Assembly: GCA_020055645.1 (NCBI GenBank)
Contig: CM034547.1
Span: forward strand, 67,552,884 to 67,616,883
Direction: 5' to 3'
Length of the DNA stretch: 64,000 nt
Source of the DNA: Tomocerus qinae
Taxonomy: Eukaryota > Arthropoda > Collembola > Entomobryomorpha > Tomoceridae
Positions within the stretch are counted from its first letter, which is position 1. Each line of letters starts with the position of its first letter. Below the pieces are notes generated by a model. It searched no databases, was not told the DNA's origin, and worked only from the letters and a program-made list of their open reading frames with translations. Position numbers and translations under genes: made by a program. This document shows positions 17,918 through 59,808 of the stretch, in pieces.

Positions 17918-19716
17918 ATAGAGATATAACATAGGTAGGTATTGTACAAATCTAGAGAGAGCATTTGAAAAGGATGCGGAAAAGACATGACATGATGAGG
18001 GGATCTGCGCGAAAGCTATTCTCATGTGTTTTCGTACAAAATGAATTTGACTTGCCTCCGACTTCATCCCTCATAGCCAATCAAAATTGAATGGGTTATA
18101 CGAATGACCAGCAAACTCAAATCGTAGATAAATTAGGAAAATTTTTTAATGATTTAATCCTTGACAACAAACAAATAAAACACCCGAAATCACTTGGTAA
18201 TTTATCCAGCCGAACAAAACTGAACAAAAAATTATCAGTCCCCTCTGGATATTAAATTTTATTTTTGCAGGCAGAATTTAGGCAGTGAGATCTCGTTTCC
18301 TCCTCTGTTTCCTCCAAGAAGCATAAACGCTATGTTGTTGGAAACCAAAGAGGTTCTAATAATATTAAGGGAATAGAGCAAAAGTGGAGAATATTTTCTT
18401 TATAACATTAATGAATAGCTATTAATTTACCGATACCCACTAATACATCCGACCGCGAAATTTTTACGATACCTAGTAATGCATAATCGAAGACAATAGG
18501 GATTGATTTTTGTACCATTGAAAGGCATTACGGTTTTGGCTCTACATTTTACAACCTCTTTGTTGGAAACGGAATAAATGCAGAACATTTACTAGGATGC
18601 TGGAATGGGACAATCATTGATGAAGCATTATAGGAAAGGTAGAGGTAAGGGATTTTTCTCAGAAATAATTCCTTATAAATCTTCAGAAATCTATGTTTAG
18701 CAAAATTCGCTAGATGTTAGAATGATTGGCAATGTTGCAACTTGGGATTCTATTTCTTATCGTTAACTGTCTCCACAGCAAAACTAAAAGGCCATGGTAA
18801 GGCCCCATTCTGTTATTTGGTTCCCGTCAATTTTTTGCTTCATTTTTGACATTACTTAAAAAATTTAAGCCTAACAAGTAGCATGTTTCTTTTTTAAAGT
18901 TTTTTGCTAGGCCAGAAAATAGATAAAAAATAGTGACGGATGTTATAGGGTGTTTTATTAAGTTTGGAGGAAACAGACAATTGGTTATTTCGCATCCATC
19001 ATTTGGAAGAAACGGGATGGGAGGCAACGAGATCCCGCTATCTAAATTCAGCTCAAGTATAATAATATTGAAACAAGAAACCAACCAACCAACATGTTTC
19101 GTTTCTTATTCAGATTCGAAATTTAGAGCACCGTACTACTGTTCGTTCAGGAAAATTAGATAGTCCTGTGTGGCTTTTTACATGTTGATCATTTTGAAAT
19201 CTTAGTTTAATGGTAAATTTTATTTCACTGAAGACAAAAATCTAAATAACCATGGTAACATTTAAATATCCAAAAAACCTTTCAGATTTTGAACTTTCCA
19301 ATTTTTCTGAACGAACAATAGAGGACTAAAAACAAAGTTGGGGGCATAGGGGGCAAATGCCAAATTTCCCCAAATACCAAAATAAAATCGATGTGATTTT
19401 TAAGCCATTTATACATATTCAGGATGTATGGCATCCTTGCCGTCTCCGAAAATGACTTCTAAGGTCAACTGCATAAATTGGGGTTTGCGATAGAATGCGT
19501 ATTGGCTTTCGGGTCTCTGCTCTTTCAAAATAAGTTTTGTTGTCAAGAGAGATTTTTCATAAATTTATCTAAGATCTGAGTTTGCTGGTTGTTCGTATAA
19601 TCCATTCAATTAAGTATTACACGTCACTATTATTCAATTTATAACATTGGGGGAATACGATAGGCTTTCTCTAGATCTACTACAATACCTACCTATACTA
19701 TCTCTATGTATGATAC
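17918..19716. mobile_element. 1.8-kb element with long inverted ends
   Basis: 'catagagata', 'taggtaggtattgta', 'atctagaga' and 'ccagcaaactca' on the left (17918-18140) recur in reverse complement order at 19548-19716. The interior contains a separate inverted-repeat element (18270-19053). No transposase is seen, so it is non-autonomous. Confidence 0.55.
18270..19053. mobile_element. hAT-type MITE, GGCTGAATTTAGGC family, oldest copy
   Basis: The ends GGCAGAATTTAGGCAGTGAG and ...GATCCCGCTATCTAAATTCAGCT match the family seen at 39258, 41182, 41493 and 52790. The termini have mutations and no target duplication is visible, so this looks like an old copy. It is non-coding. Confidence 0.65.
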
Positions 19717-39257: not shown

Positions 39258-39835
39258 GGCTGAATTTAGGCAGCGGTACCTCGTTGCCGGTGTTGCCGTT
39301 GTTGCCGGTGTTGCCGGTACACATTGTTGCCAAATAACTTTCTTACCGGCGACACCGGCAACACCGGCAACAACGGCGACACATTCCACATGCCCATCTG
39401 ATTGCCTTTATCACTTATAGTTTAATATATAATTGAACAAGCGGTCCATATATTCCGGATATAACAAACATGAAACATAACATAAATGAAATAAACAAAT
39501 TCGACAGTTATCATTATGAGTAAAAAATTATTATGTTATGTTCGTTATATTCAAATCTGATAGAATGTCAATTTTCCCCAGATCCCTCCTTATTTGTTTA
39601 ATTCATTTAGGTTAGGTTTATTATATCCGCATTATATGGACGGCTAGATCTATATTAATTTATTATATATTATACTACATAATATAAGTCATAAATGCAA
39701 TCAGATGGGTATGTGGAATGTGTTGCCGGTGTCGCCGTTGTTGCCGGTGTTGCCGGTGTTGCCGTTAAGAAAGTTATTTGGCAACAATGTGTACCGGCAA
39801 CACCGGCAACGAGGTACCGCTGCCTAAATTCAGCC
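39258..39835. mobile_element. hAT-type MITE, GGCTGAATTTAGGC family, copy 2
   Basis: The ends GGCTGAATTTAGGCAGCGG and its reverse complement flank arms of about 160 bp made largely of GTTGCCG repeats. The unique centre is about 260 bp. The flanks TTTATTAT and TTTATTTC are a partly decayed 8-bp target duplication (6 of 8 match). It is non-coding. Confidence 0.75.
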
Positions 39836-40253
39836 TTTATTTCATTTAGGTTAGGTTAGGTTACGGGGTTGGGGTGGGGAGGGTGGAAACGTGACCTTTA
39901 GGTCATGTCCGGAAAAGATCCGATGAAACATTGGGGTGTCACTGAATGTACAGCTACGACCAACAACTCATCTGGTCAAATTTTATTTCATTTAGTTCCC
40001 TTAGTTAGTATGTTTTAACACTTACAACTTAAGGTTTTTTGATCTTATGTCTTATCTTCATCTGTTGTTTATCATATCAGTCATGTCACCGAAAGAATAA
40101 CGGGCTAAATCCTTAGGTTAAGGTTAAGGTTTGGCTTAGGGTAAGGTTTGGTTTTCTAAATTGCACCAACTTCTATGTTAGGCTTTTTCATTATGCTACC
40201 TTCGATTTTCATTTTTAATTAGTTAGTTTTAAAAAAATGCTAATTGTGACCAC

Positions 40254-40837
40254 CAGAGATCGCAATTTGGAAGAGTATTGAGAAGGGCCTACTCTTTTCT
40301 CATTTTGAAAATCAAAAATTCTCAACTCAACCTCTCAATACTCTTTTTGTCTTAAGGCCATGCTCAACTCAACCTCTCAATACTCTTTTCACCAAACGGC
40401 CATACTCAACTCAATCTCTCAATACTCTTTTTTTCAAAAAGCCGTACTCAAGAGAACACTCTTTACTCTTTGAGAAAGAGTGCATTTGAGAGAGAGCCAC
40501 TCATGTTCTCAAAAATGAGAAATAAGAACTGATTGCGACCTAGAGATCGCAATTTGGAAGAGTATTGAGAAGGGCCTACTCTTTTCTCATTTTGAAAATC
40601 AAAAATTCTCAACTCAACCTCTCAATACTCTTTTTGTCTTAAGGCCATGCTCAACTCAACCTCTCAATACTCTTTTCACCAAACGGCCATACTCAACTCA
40701 ATCTCTCAATACTCATTTTGTCAAAAGGCCGTACTCAAGAGAACACTCTTTACTCTTTGAGAAAGAGTGGTAAAGAGTGCATCTGAGAGCCACTCATGTT
40801 CTCAAAAATGAGAAATGAGAACTGATTGCGATCTCTG
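40254..40837. mobile_element. 584-bp hAT-type MITE with internal tandem duplication
   Basis: The inverted ends are CAGAGATCGCAAT and ATTGCGATCTCTG, flanked by direct repeats GTGACCAC (40246-40253 and 40838-40845). The body is a near-perfect 287-bp tandem duplication (units at about 40261 and 40548) full of 'caatactctt' and 'gagaaagagtg'. It is inserted into one unit of the neighbouring 64-bp tandem repeat, whose intact units carry the unduplicated GTGACCAC. It is non-coding. Confidence 0.85.
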
Positions 40838-40845
40838 GTGACCAC

Positions 40846-41181: not shown

Positions 41182-42117
41182 GGCTGAATTTAGGCAGCGG
41201 TACTTTTTTGCCACTGCCCCCGCTGTTGCCACTAGGGGGTAAGTGGGGTCAGCGGCAACAGCATAAAAGCGGAAACAGTGGCAACAGTGGCGACACACAA
41301 AAACCACAGGTGGCAACAGCGGCGACACGCAAAATCCACTAGCGGCGACACAGCTAAAACCACTAGCGACAACAGAGACACATTAATCTGATTTCCTCTG
41401 TTGCCGCTAAACTTAATATAAGCCAATGGACTGCTGCTCTGAGCTCAATGCTCAACAGCGGCAACAGAGGATATCAGGCAGATTAATGTGTCGGCTGAAT
41501 TTAGGCACCAGGATCTCGTTGCCTCAATTGCCGCCGTTACCCCATGCTTAGTCACTTTACCTATTACTTCAATATGTTGCCTCCCGTCACTATTTTTGCC
41601 TCTTTTTTTGACCTAACCTAATAAAAAATAAACTGTTTTATTGTTAATGCATAACGAAAATGTAGCAGCATGTTTATTTTTAATTAGGTTAGGTCAAAAA
41701 AGATGCAAAAATAGTGACGGGAGGCAAATGGAAAAGACTATAGGTGAATTGGCTTAACTTGGGGCAACGGGGGCAATTGAAGCAACGAGATCCCGCTGCC
41801 TAAATTCAGCCAATATGTCTCTGTTGCCGCTAGTGGTTTTAGCTGTGTCGCCGCTGTTGCCGCTAGTGGACTTTGCGTGTCGCCGCTAGTGGTTGTACCG
41901 TGTCGCCGCTGTTGCCGCTAGTGGTTGTACCGTGTCGCCGCTGTTGCCGCTAGTGGTTGTACCGTGTCGCCGCTGTTGCCGCTAGTGGTTGTACCGTGTC
42001 GCCGCTGTTGCCACTGTCTCCGCTATTATGTTGTTGCCGCTAACCCCCCAAATCTCCCAGAGGCAACAGGCGACAGCGGGGACAGTGGCAACAAAGTACC
42101 GCTGCCTAAATTCAGCC
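41182..42117. mobile_element. hAT-type MITE, GGCTGAATTTAGGC family, copy 3 (host of a nested copy)
   Basis: The ends are GGCTGAATTTAGGCAGCGG and its inverse, with a perfect 8-bp target duplication TAGTTACA (41174-41181 and 42118-42125). The arms carry 'gttgccgctagtgg' repeats, including a 32-bp tandem array at 41890-42010. A second family member is inserted at 41493-41811. It is non-coding. Confidence 0.9.
41493..41811. mobile_element. hAT-type MITE, GGCTGAATTTAGGC family, nested copy 4
   Basis: A 319-bp element inside copy 3. The ends are GGCTGAATTTAGGCACCAG and ...CCGCTGCCTAAATTCAGCC. The flanks AATGTGTC and AATATGTC are an 8-bp duplication with one mismatch. The interior has 'cctaacctaat' and its inverse, as in copy 5, so copies 4 and 5 form a shorter subfamily. 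Confidence 0.85.
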
Positions 42118-51398: not shown

Positions 51399-52230
51399 TT
51401 GTGTCGTTACCAAAGTTCGTGGGGAAATGAATGCTGAGATGACTTACTGAAGAAAAACTGACCGGTCTGTAGCAATAAAAAGAAATTAATTAATTGTTGG
51501 CAATAATTAACACATATGCATAATTCTATTCAAAATCATGGTTTCCGTAATATTTTTCACTGCAATGGTCAAATAATAAAAAATATATGATAATAATAAT
51601 ATGGAGGCTAAATATCTCTCTACTGACAACAATCCCGCGAAAACGTTTACCAGTCTCACTCAACAAGAATTTGTACTTGTTGAGTGAACTTCCAAATTGA
51701 AAGACTTCAGTTGTTCCGTTTTGTTCCAAGGGGACTGTGTAACACTACAGTTTATTATGTACTATGCTAAAAAAAAGTACATGTAATGATATCTTAACAT
51801 AATTACGCCTAGCTTATTTCCGTGTAAATCAGAAAGTTTTAGGGACACTGCTAAATCGGTTACAGTCACCTCCTGAAAGGGGAATTGGGGACAGACGGAA
51901 AATTAACATATTAAAGTTCGATCGATTGTCGATAGTTATAGATCATGTTGAGATCAACTACTGTATTGCCGATTGCCGCTACTTTACTCCGCCTGTTTGT
52001 AAATGTTTATTTTCAGCGTTGTTTTTTGGGAGTTTTTACGAGGTCAGCAAAATTAAACGAACATCTGATATTCGGCGTTTAGGGTTTTAAGTATATTCTT
52101 GATTTAATATTAACATCAACATTTACGTTTTGCCTACGCGTGCCGGACGATTTTTCTCAGTTGAGATGATATTTGCCCTATATTGACTACGAAAGTACGG
52201 AATTGGTATATTATAAGGAAGTATATATGA

Positions 52231-53340
52231 CTATAACACGTACTTAGTTGGATATTCAAGAAGACCGGTTGGATCTCTATGAAGTTCAAATTCCTGGACA
52301 GCTTCAGCTCGTGTATCATCAAACGTCATATGTGGTCTATTTTTGAATCTGAAATACATGCAATTATTAAAATTGCATTTTAGTACTCTGCTGACCCTAA
52401 AACATTTACAGATACAAATTCCTAACCTATAAAGATAAAGCCTAAAATGAATAAACCTATAATACAAATGAATTAACATGATATACAGGATAACACTAAG
52501 TAAGCTTACAAACGCATTCTTCCGGGATGACAGTCATCATCAGGAGCCACAAGTATAATACCCTTTAGTTTGATGTTTCCAGTAAATCTGTAAGCAACAA
52601 AGGCATGATGAGACATGAACTATATTATGACAATATTAAACTATATTTTAGGTATAAATATATTTTTGTACGGTATATTGAAGAGAAGTTCTTCATCCAC
52701 GTCACTTTCAACCATCTAGAAATGAAAAATTTTGTTACTTCTCACGAAATTAACAGACTGCAAAATAAAAATGTGTATAAAGAAATTACGGCTAGATTTA
52801 AGCAGCGGGGTCTCGTTACCTCAATTGCCCCTGTTGCTTCCGTTGCCCCCTCCCCCGTTGCCCCTAGTTCAGCCTCTTAAACTATTATCTTTGCTATTTG
52901 CTTCCCGTTACTATTTCTGCCTCTTTTTTGACCTAACCTAATTAAAATTAAGCATATTACTTGCTTGTTAGGCTTTAACAATAAAACAGTTTATTTTTTA
53001 TTAGGTTAGGTCAAATAAGAGGCAAAAATAGTGATGGGAGGCAACGGGGACAATATATTAAAGTAATAGATTAAGTGGCTAAACTAGGGGCAATGGGGGA
53101 AGGGGCAATTGAGGCAACGAGATCCCGCTGCCTAAATCCAGCCGAAATTACTGTGTCAAAGTTGAGTCTCGTTTCCCAAGGTTTGAATATGGATTTAGCC
53201 GAACCATCCACTCGTTCATTAAGACATGTTAAATTCTCTTTATCCACTTTGGTGTATAAGCTGTACTCTATTCCCATTTCAGGAGAATCTTCTTGGTGTG
53301 TATGATCCCCATTGCAGCCCCCTCCACAATTGTGAGGCAT
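52231..53340 (-). CDS. PITHD1: PITH domain protein PITHD1, apparently truncated
   Basis: PITHD1 proteins carry a PITH domain related to the proteasome-interacting domain of thioredoxin-like protein 1. Exons: 53340-53152 (MPHNCGGGCNGDHTH..., then GSAKSIFKPWE), 52715-52672 (ESDVDEELLFNIP), 52587-52510 (FTGNIKLKGIILVAPDDD) and 52348-52244 (HMTFDDTRAEA, then HRDPTGLLEYPTK). All join in frame and match the family up to about residue 139 of the usual ~210. Reading on past a donor-like AA|GTACGT gives Lys-Tyr-Val-Leu and TAG at 52231 (142 residues). I found no following exon for the C-terminal third in the 1.6 kb before COG4 ends. So the gene is truncated here, or has a very diverged last exon. Intron 1 holds a MITE. 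Confidence 0.75.
52790..53143. mobile_element. hAT-type MITE, GGCTGAATTTAGGC family, copy 5, at a splice site
   Basis: A 354-bp element in PITHD1 intron 1, with ends GGCTAGATTTAAGCAGCGG and ...CCGCTGCCTAAATCCAGCC. Perfect 8-bp target duplication GAAATTAC lies at 52782-52789 and 53144-53151. On the PITHD1 strand the duplication reads GTAATTTC, and the copy at 53151-53144 is exactly the first eight bases of the intron. Without the insert the intron would be about 74 bp. The interior carries 'cctaacctaat' and its inverse, as in copy 4. Confidence 0.92.
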
Positions 53341-56300
53341 GGTATATAATAGTCCTGTTCAAATCAACGAATTCACTGCCTCCCTGGCCCTGGTATATTA
53401 CTTTAACAGTTTCAGTAACTGCACAGATCTTATCTAGAGCCTAAATAATTAAAGACACAAATGTTTAGGTAAAAATTAAAAACAAAATATTATGCACTTC
53501 TTCGATTTAAATGGAAAATGAAAATGTGAATAATGTTTGATATTGTCAATAGAGGTTTCCCACAATTGGTGACCGGTCACTAAATTAACATGAATATGTA
53601 TTGAAATGACTCAGTACCTACCTGCCTGTGTTATCCTGGAATTGTGGGAAACGTCTATTGTCAATTGTGACTTCCTAGACTTCGTGGTCTCCGGGACCAT
53701 CACTTTTTAAAACGTTATTCAATCAATTTCTAATGTGAATTTCCTTACAGTTATTCAGTCTTCGATTGAGGCTAAAGTTGGCTATCCTGACTCCTGACCT
53801 CTGGAAATTATGCTTTGGTGTAGCAGGTATGATTTTTTAAGTAACTGTCTTGCCTATCCACTATTAGCACTGTGGCAGTGACCCAGACTCACTGTCTTGT
53901 CTTGGTCGTAATTCTGACTTTGAATTTCTAGTTTGTCTGTTAACTGTCAAGTCCTGTGGTAAAGTGGTAAAGGTAATACAGCAAAATAAATTATTAGGTA
54001 TTTTTATTTTATTGTCATCATGACGAGACAGTATTGAACTTCTTAATTCAAAATCTACAACTTTACCCGCTGGTAGACAGCAAGATGAATTAGTATGGAA
54101 ATAATAGTTCGGATACCAATGCCCCATAATGGGAAAAGTGTATTAGTAATTAATAATAGTAATAAATAATAAACATCATAACATAAGAGTCAAACGTAAA
54201 CCAAACCTTACTTATCCCAAACTTGAAATTGTGAGGAAGGAAAGGTGAAAAGATGAAAAGCTAGTTTTCTGAAATTACATTAGCATTTCGATCAATTATC
54301 ATTAGGTTACGGCCAATAAAATTGATAAGCAAATTATCTTTTGATGGCTACATTTTTCAAGAATTCAAAATAGTATTGAAATTGAAAATACGAAAATGAG
54401 TTACCTATATCCTTCTATAACGTAAAAAATATTTCGGATTTAGCTATTGAATATAAGTATGCGACCGATCCCGATGTCACTAAAATAATCATAATATTAT
54501 TAGATAAAACATTGTGAAAATGGCATTGCGTAATATGTTGATGAGGGGCAATGGGAGAATTATTGTGTACTCACAGTACTCCAGTACTCTACTCAATCAA
54601 GTTCAATTTCTATATTATAGTTAGGTAGAGTTAGGTAGATATACTTCAGTTAAGAAGCATAAAATAACTAATAAGCACCCAGTACAAAACCGAAATAAAT
54701 GTTCGGATCTCTAAAATCGGTTCTATAGTCTCCAGCCAGACCTGCCTGAGGTATAGGTCAATCAATCTACGGAGTGTTAGGAAGGAATCATATTATTGTA
54801 TTGTACTATGACTACGGACGGTATAATGTGAATAGCAGCATGTCTAGCATGTACGTATCACGTAGGATAGGGAATTAGGGAGTGAAGCTTGGCAAAAATG
54901 TAACGATTGATTTCATTTCATCCACCTGGGCTTTTATCCGAACGAGAACTTGGCTCCAGCAGCTCCAGTCAACAACGCAGCAGCAACTCTTTTCTTCCAC
55001 TCCACTCTTTCTGTTCTTTTCTGTCCATTGGACAAACAACATGTAGAGCAAACACAACTCTCTTTCCCATTTTGTTTTCTACGCCCTACTTCTTCACTTT
55101 TCTTTATTTTCTTCTAATTCCCTTTTACAGTTTTCCTCACAAATCTTCTACTCAATTTCCGTGCAGTTTTCCTGTCATTACGTTGAAATCTTTCGAGCAT
55201 TCTAACTGACGTTAGTGCTTATTCTTATTCATTATTCTAATTTAGGGAAAATGTTCTTGTTGAGTATGTCATCAGTCATCACTAATTTTAATAAGTGCAT
55301 TTACAAAAATTGGAGTATCTTTATAGGTACCTAGTTTAATTATTTTATGTATACAATTGACCAAGTCAGAGTTTTGACGGTCTATCAAACTCGTACGGTC
55401 GTACCTATATTCTATATAGTACGTACTCCATTATTTCTGTTGTTTCATGTATTTGGTTGAACTTGTGACTGTTCCAACCAAAGGGCTGTATTACAAAATA
55501 CACACACTGCACCGCAATGAACGTTTTCTGCTGATCTACTTTTAACCTTGTTTCTCATTCTCTCGTCTGAAGCATTTGTTTCTGTTGTACTCTTACACTC
55601 TTACCTTCTAAAAATACTCAGTTTTTCATTTCATCATGTCTTATTTCACCTCTTCTTTTGGTTAATGAAATCCTATTCCTCTTACCAACCATATTCATAT
55701 AAGTACTCAGATCATTATACCAGAAGCGATGAAGAGAATGCTAATATCTGTATACTGAAGGATTTACTGTCTTCACTCAAACTACCTAAAATTGATCGAG
55801 CTGTCTAATAAACAAAATAACTGCAACTTCACTTGCACCAGGTAGGTACACTCAAAATCAATGTACTGGATACTGGATAGAATCTAATCTTAGTTAATCT
55901 AATTTTAATATAGTAAAAGTTATGTGAATGAATTCCTTTCGGGACCTATTCCCCTGCGTCTATTTTCAAAAAGTCCATATTCAATATTCAAAATGATTCA
56001 GACTTGCATATACATCCGTAATCCGTACCCAATTACTATACATTTATTATTTATATATAGTAATAATTGTATCAAAAACAACATTTTGGTACCATATTAT
56101 TCCTTTCCACAGGTATAAAAAATCACAAAATTGTCTGGGTTGGAATTCCAAGTTACGAGCTCATCTATAAGTTTAGATTTTGAAACGTTCATTTGCCGTT
56201 TTTCTTGTTCATGAAAAAGAGGTAAAGAACCAACTATTTTTCCATAACATTAGTATCTACTGTTAGCAAATTATAACTTCCTTGCACCTACTATATAAAT

Positions 56301-59605: not shown

Positions 59606-59808
59606 TAATGGACCAATTGGCTATTCAATCAGCGCCCCTTCAGCGAGACACCACGACATTAAAAAGATAGACACAACAGCCGAGTTTCGGTCCGCCGCAG
59701 TATCCATAAACCATTAGGCGGTCGGCCGAAAGTCGGCTAAAGGTCTATTTTTTAATGTCGTGGTGTCTCGCTGAAGGGGCGCTGATTGAATAGCCAATTG
59801 GTCCATTA
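59606..59808. mobile_element. 203-bp hairpin MITE with near-perfect 59-bp arms
   Basis: The arm TAATGGACCAATTGGCTATT..., running to 'cacgacattaaaaa' (59606-59664), is repeated exactly as its reverse complement at 59750-59808. Looser pairing continues inward ('agccgagtttcgg' against 'ccgaaagtcggct'). With ATGGACC as terminus, a TA target duplication is possible, which would suggest a Tc1/mariner-type MITE. It is the youngest-looking element in the right part of the window. Confidence 0.8.

Follow-up and report, generated by a model that had tools for sequence, protein, structure and literature searches.

Results

The PITHD1 gene and its first intron

The window analysed here is a stretch of 64,000 nucleotides of Tomocerus qinae DNA, positions 67552884-67616883 of its contig, in a genome of 334 Mb and 115 contigs. 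It contains a gene on the minus strand that encodes a PITH domain (Pfam PITH, E 1.9e-48, residues 20-183 of the spliced model). The product is a short protein that has a PITH but no thioredoxin domain, and on this ground we take the gene to be PITHD1. The coding part of exon 1 (53152..53340, minus strand) comprises 63 codons and ends in phase 0, as judged from the reading frame and the PITH match; its 3' end at 53152 reads ...FKPWETRLNFDT, corresponding to the residues LNFDT. This is followed by intron 1 (52716..53151, minus strand), which is 436 nt long, or 74 nt when an inserted element and one octamer are subtracted, and which on the gene strand runs from GTAATTTC to TTTCTAG. Exon 2 (52672..52715, minus strand), made up of MVESDVDEELLFNI and two bases of the next codon, contains 44 nt and begins at 52715 in phase 0 with the residues MVESDVDEELL.

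From the frame and the homology, the donor of intron 1 is most probably located at 53151, and the splice between exons 1 and 2 is supported by the PITH match, which spans the joined exons. An acceptor at an internal TTTTGCAG was considered and rejected, the 42 extra nucleotides ending, by eye, in an in-frame TAG. A first intron of 74 nt would not be odd for PITHD1, since introns 2 and 3 of the gene model are 84 and 161 nt long. At the junction of exons 4 and 5 (window 51453-52243), the model may miss a small exon. No empty orthologous intron was found in the collection searched, which contains no relatives of this genome; comparison of the PITHD1 protein with viral contigs gave six pattern stretches and no relative.

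A MITE flanked by an eight-base target duplication

The element in intron 1 is a MITE of 354 bp (52790..53143) with imperfect terminal and long internal inverted repeats and with relatives in the same genome. Its inverted ends are GGCTAGATTTAAGCAGCGGGG and GGCTGGATTTAGGCAGCGGGA, and its 52-nt arms, octamers included, are 88% complementary. The ends are shared with the relatives, of which there are many, and the element has no coding capacity: its minus-strand frames are interrupted by stops and no open reading frame of at least 110 amino acids overlaps it on either strand. On both sides it is bordered by GAAATTAC, at 52782-52789 and at 53144-53151, identical at 8/8 positions; from the base composition, the chance of such a match at two fixed places is about 2.8e-5. 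The exon-side copy (53144..53151) makes up the first eight nucleotides of PITHD1 intron 1, with the GT at 53151-53150, while the intron-side copy (52782..52789), which likewise reads GTAATTTC on the gene strand, is a possible distal donor.

Being near-palindromes that lengthen the arms, the octamers could be taken for part of the inverted repeat. This was rejected, because other copies of the family carry other octamers and an empty relative carries one copy only; the octamer pair is a true target duplication, which in the family is 8 and sometimes 9 bp long and varies in sequence among copies. The preliminary description of this DNA, made from the letters alone, had proposed a MITE, an eight-base duplication coinciding with the first eight bases of the intron, and growth of the intron from about 74 to 436 bp. 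All of these are borne out, including both lengths and their coordinates, the exon-side copy starting exactly at the modelled donor 53151.

Copies of the family

With the element as query against the 334-Mb genome, 845 first-look candidates were obtained, of which 40 were scored, so that the copies described here are a lower bound. The query gave 114 matches, many of them one place read on the opposite strand. All of the 40 best-scoring places (L002-L031 and L032-L041) were fetched and examined. An exact 8-bp repeat is present at the expected ends in 20 of these 40, representing 19 independent insertions because L017 and L022 are one site, and five further places have an exact repeat with a one-base shift. 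In six of the 40 the match is 7/8 (shifted in three of these), and in the other nine no repeat was found within shifts of three bases. Clear 9-bp repeats are present at three places (L006, L019 and L025). The sequences of the duplications vary from site to site. Compared with four relatives, the PITHD1 copy shows 89.0-92.7% identity, and its best match among the places scored in the genome reaches 93%, so that there is no hint of a very recent insertion.

Four relatives are located in the window itself. The closest (41493..41811; 80.5% identity over 298 aligned columns) is flanked by AATGTGTC and AATATGTC, which match at 7/8 positions, and is nested within a larger relative (41182..42117) that has the same ends and a perfect duplication, TAGTTACA. 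A third relative (39258..39835) has the common terminal repeats and flanks matching at 6/8 positions, while a fourth (18270..19053) has altered ends and no visible duplication (2/8). The nested composite of 41182-42117, whose inner duplication is AATGTGTC (on the opposite strand, GACACATT), recurs at L042 and L045. Its outer duplication at L042 is GAAGGTCA, as opposed to TAGTTACA in the window, which suggests that the two nested elements transposed together; at L045 an outer duplication was looked for and not found. By eye, many GTTGCCG/GTGTCGCCGCTGTTGCCGCTAGTGG-like repeats lie between the ends of the larger relatives at 39258-39835 and 41182-42117, and two adjacent, near-alike blocks, each some 290 bp long and with many CTCAATACTCTTT motifs, are present at window 40244-40840.

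An empty site related to one of the insertions is also present in the window. L017 and L022 contain the same insertion, which lies in a longer stretch present twice in the genome (99.7% identity over 2572 bp), and the window piece 53545-53668 is a relative of this stretch without the element, with 103 of 131 aligned columns identical (79%, gapped). Here, a single GAAATGAC is found in another repeat (53603..53610, plus strand), where L017 and L022 have the element. While 53545-53668 matches the L022 insertion point itself, the window pieces 59607-59667 and 59750-59807, in opposite orientations, are 97-98% identical to a 61-bp part near that insertion.

Register of the insertion and use of the two donor copies

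For octamer composition, 23 exact, zero-shift 8-bp repeats were used. The recurring nested composite was counted once, and L022, the places with one-base shifts, 7/8 matches or no match, and the relatives at 39258-39835 and 18270-19053 were left out. Donor scoring was done on the same set minus the nested composite site: for 22 insertions whose octamers are exact, the flanks were joined and scored in both orientations (44 ends), and scores of at least 2 bits were called donor-like. The donor matrix was a generic one, not trained on this species; it is a rough guide, the modelled donor of PITHD1 intron 2 scoring only -2.24 bits.

The preliminary description had proposed a genome-wide scan for copies that start at donor sites. 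Over these 22 insertions, a donor-like score at the start of the duplication was found for one of the 44 ends (PITHD1 itself, 3.98 bits), against 0.72 expected from other positions in the same flanks. A family that targets splice donors or GT starts, which would make the PITHD1 register something other than chance, is highly improbable on these numbers. It would fit the four of 23 independent octamers that start with GT in one orientation, and a modest surplus of G in the first position of the target (15 of 46 ends, where 8.2 would be expected; uncorrected p about 0.012), which would slightly favour registers beginning at a GT donor. However, the three GT-start octamers besides that of PITHD1 score -5.04, -5.45 and -1.3 bits and are not donor-like. 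In this small sample of 22 sites there is no sign of a donor preference. Along the flanks, donor-like scores are commonest at offsets -8 and +9 (four each over the 44 ends, against one at the start).

The second octamer had been described as a latent alternative donor. Its sequence does permit this, but with the same matrix it scores lower than the first copy (1.47 against 3.98 bits), and a transcript spliced from it would be longer by 362 nt and run into a stop once 26 extra codons have been read. The first copy is thus most likely the one used, although the lower score does not exclude use of the second, the modelled intron 2 donor having a score lower still. A 511-nt stretch containing the intron is predicted to fold into a long hairpin (-232.4 kcal/mol, against a mean of -122 for 100 shuffles; z -17.9). 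At its foot, one copy of the donor pairs with the other at 6/8 positions, with predicted probabilities of 0.55 to 0.99, because GTAATTTC is nearly palindromic. Donor positions +1 to +4 have unpaired probabilities of 0.36-0.55 in the empty-site fold, compared to 0.32, 0.89, 0.33 and 0.08 in the filled one; an effect of the modelled fold on access to the donor is possible but not clear-cut.

The hairpin and the pairing of the copies speak for competition between the duplicated donors, by which the insertion would alter PITHD1 splicing through an alternative donor, intron retention or occlusion of the donor by the hairpin. We nevertheless consider this unlikely: a strong hairpin is normal for an inverted-repeat element, the donor is partly paired in the empty-site fold too, the distal donor is the lower-scoring one and leads to stop codons, and static folds ignore co-transcriptional splicing. 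It is very unlikely that the paired octamers would loop out the element, so that the long intron acts like the former short one, or mask the donor, so that PITHD1 splicing is adjusted through the fold.

Relation to DNA transposon superfamilies

The terminus of the element is GGCTGAATTTAGGCAGCGG. Among known transposons, Merlin elements carry a conserved 5'-GG-3' at their termini and duplicate 8 or 9 bp of the target (available part of PMC8101967), and duplications of 8-9 bp are also given for 14 mosquito MULE families (available part of PMC5225508). The GG termini and 8-9 bp duplications of our family fit Merlin, and also MULEs. As far as these sources describe them, the PITHD1 element resembles Merlin- and MULE-derived MITEs in being short and non-coding, with inverted ends starting with GG and duplications of 8 and in some cases 9 bp; it differs in that none of the 12 Merlin-type transposase loci examined could be tied to its ends. 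IS1595/Merlin-type transposase matches are present at 19 places in the genome (e.g. L050-L061), with open frames of up to 365 amino acids. Twelve of these 19 loci were retrieved together with flanks of about 1.5 kb, and in none of the 12 was the terminus of the element found at up to 5 mismatches in 19 positions. At three of the retrieved Merlin-type loci (L054, L056 and L057), the inverted ends are CTGATCACGAATATGG and are bordered by CTCGTCGAG/CTCGACGAG; at another (L055), the ends are GGAGGTTAGC, bordered by TTAATTTA/TGAATTTA. Two scans of viral contigs with terminus patterns gave no matches in either, and in prokaryote genomes the terminus 19-mer was found exactly once (L001), about two matches being expected by chance (an estimate), with 80 surrounding bases unlike the element.

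Discussion

What lies at this locus is an intron that has been lengthened right behind its first eight bases. Very probably, a MITE entered a PITHD1 intron of about 74 nt that already existed, the donor was kept, and the exact register reflects chance together with what selection tolerated. In such a course of events, a non-autonomous cut-and-paste DNA transposon would have been inserted through a staggered transposase cut which, to judge from the duplication, spanned intron positions +1 to +8. Gap repair would then have duplicated these eight bases, leaving the exon next to an unchanged donor, GTAATTTC, and a second copy behind the element. The transcript would most likely be spliced from 53151 to 52716, with an intron 362 nt longer than before. 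The exact coincidence of the duplication with the exon border would be due to chance, and to selection tolerating an insertion that left donor, branch region and acceptor intact. For one intron of 74 nt, we estimate the chance of this register at roughly 1 in 30 to 1 in 70; as the family is large and the genome has many short introns, such exact registers are to be expected. The PITHD1 case was noticed for its neatness and is an ordinary coincidence.

The donor had been described beforehand as recreated by the duplication. The exon-side donor stays as it was after any insertion here or further downstream, so that it was kept rather than made anew. A kinship with introners, also put forward at that stage, is not supported either, because an introner creates a new intron, whereas here 66 nt, including the acceptor, follow the element and the second octamer. 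It is scarcely credible that the element created the intron by insertion into coding sequence, with the duplication supplying a splice site. The duplication does coincide with the donor, as in families with a duplication-derived 5' splice site (available part of PMC9860276), but several features of the locus contradict such an origin. Behind the duplication of an introner, exon sequence would be expected, while the 66 nt beyond the second octamer end in TTTTTCATTTCTAG, and the intron is thus not bounded there by the element or its duplication. The 74 nt that remain once the element is subtracted cannot be divided into whole codons and contain a TAG directly before exon 2, in the frame of exon 2, and the protein joins in frame without them. 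An introner origin was therefore rejected on account of the residual intron and acceptor beyond the element, and insertion into a pre-existing intron is the reading that we retain.

With a control from the same genome, the locus illustrates how a DNA transposon can come to lie precisely at a splice donor and probably do no harm, because the duplication keeps the donor on the exon side. It also calls for caution: a duplication flush with an exon border should not be read as the mark of an introner if the acceptor and the remaining intron sequence are located beyond the element.

This element or locus was not found mentioned in the literature searched. Introns have been proposed to arise through insertion of transposons at splice motifs, on evidence that the available part of PMC3443670 describes as indirect; gains with an AGGT duplication are listed there for Oryza, Drosophila, Oikopleura and Zea. 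These share with PITHD1 a target duplication at a splice site, but in them, as that part describes it, the duplicated AGGT provides a new intron with both of its splice sites, whereas in PITHD1 only an existing donor was kept. Introners, too, are elements with inverted ends and target duplications found in introns, and some families take a splice site from the duplication (available part of PMC9860276). They make new introns, whereas the PITHD1 element lengthened one that retained its own acceptor. As the intron in all probability already existed, the PITHD1 locus would belong neither with transposon-made intron gains nor with introners.
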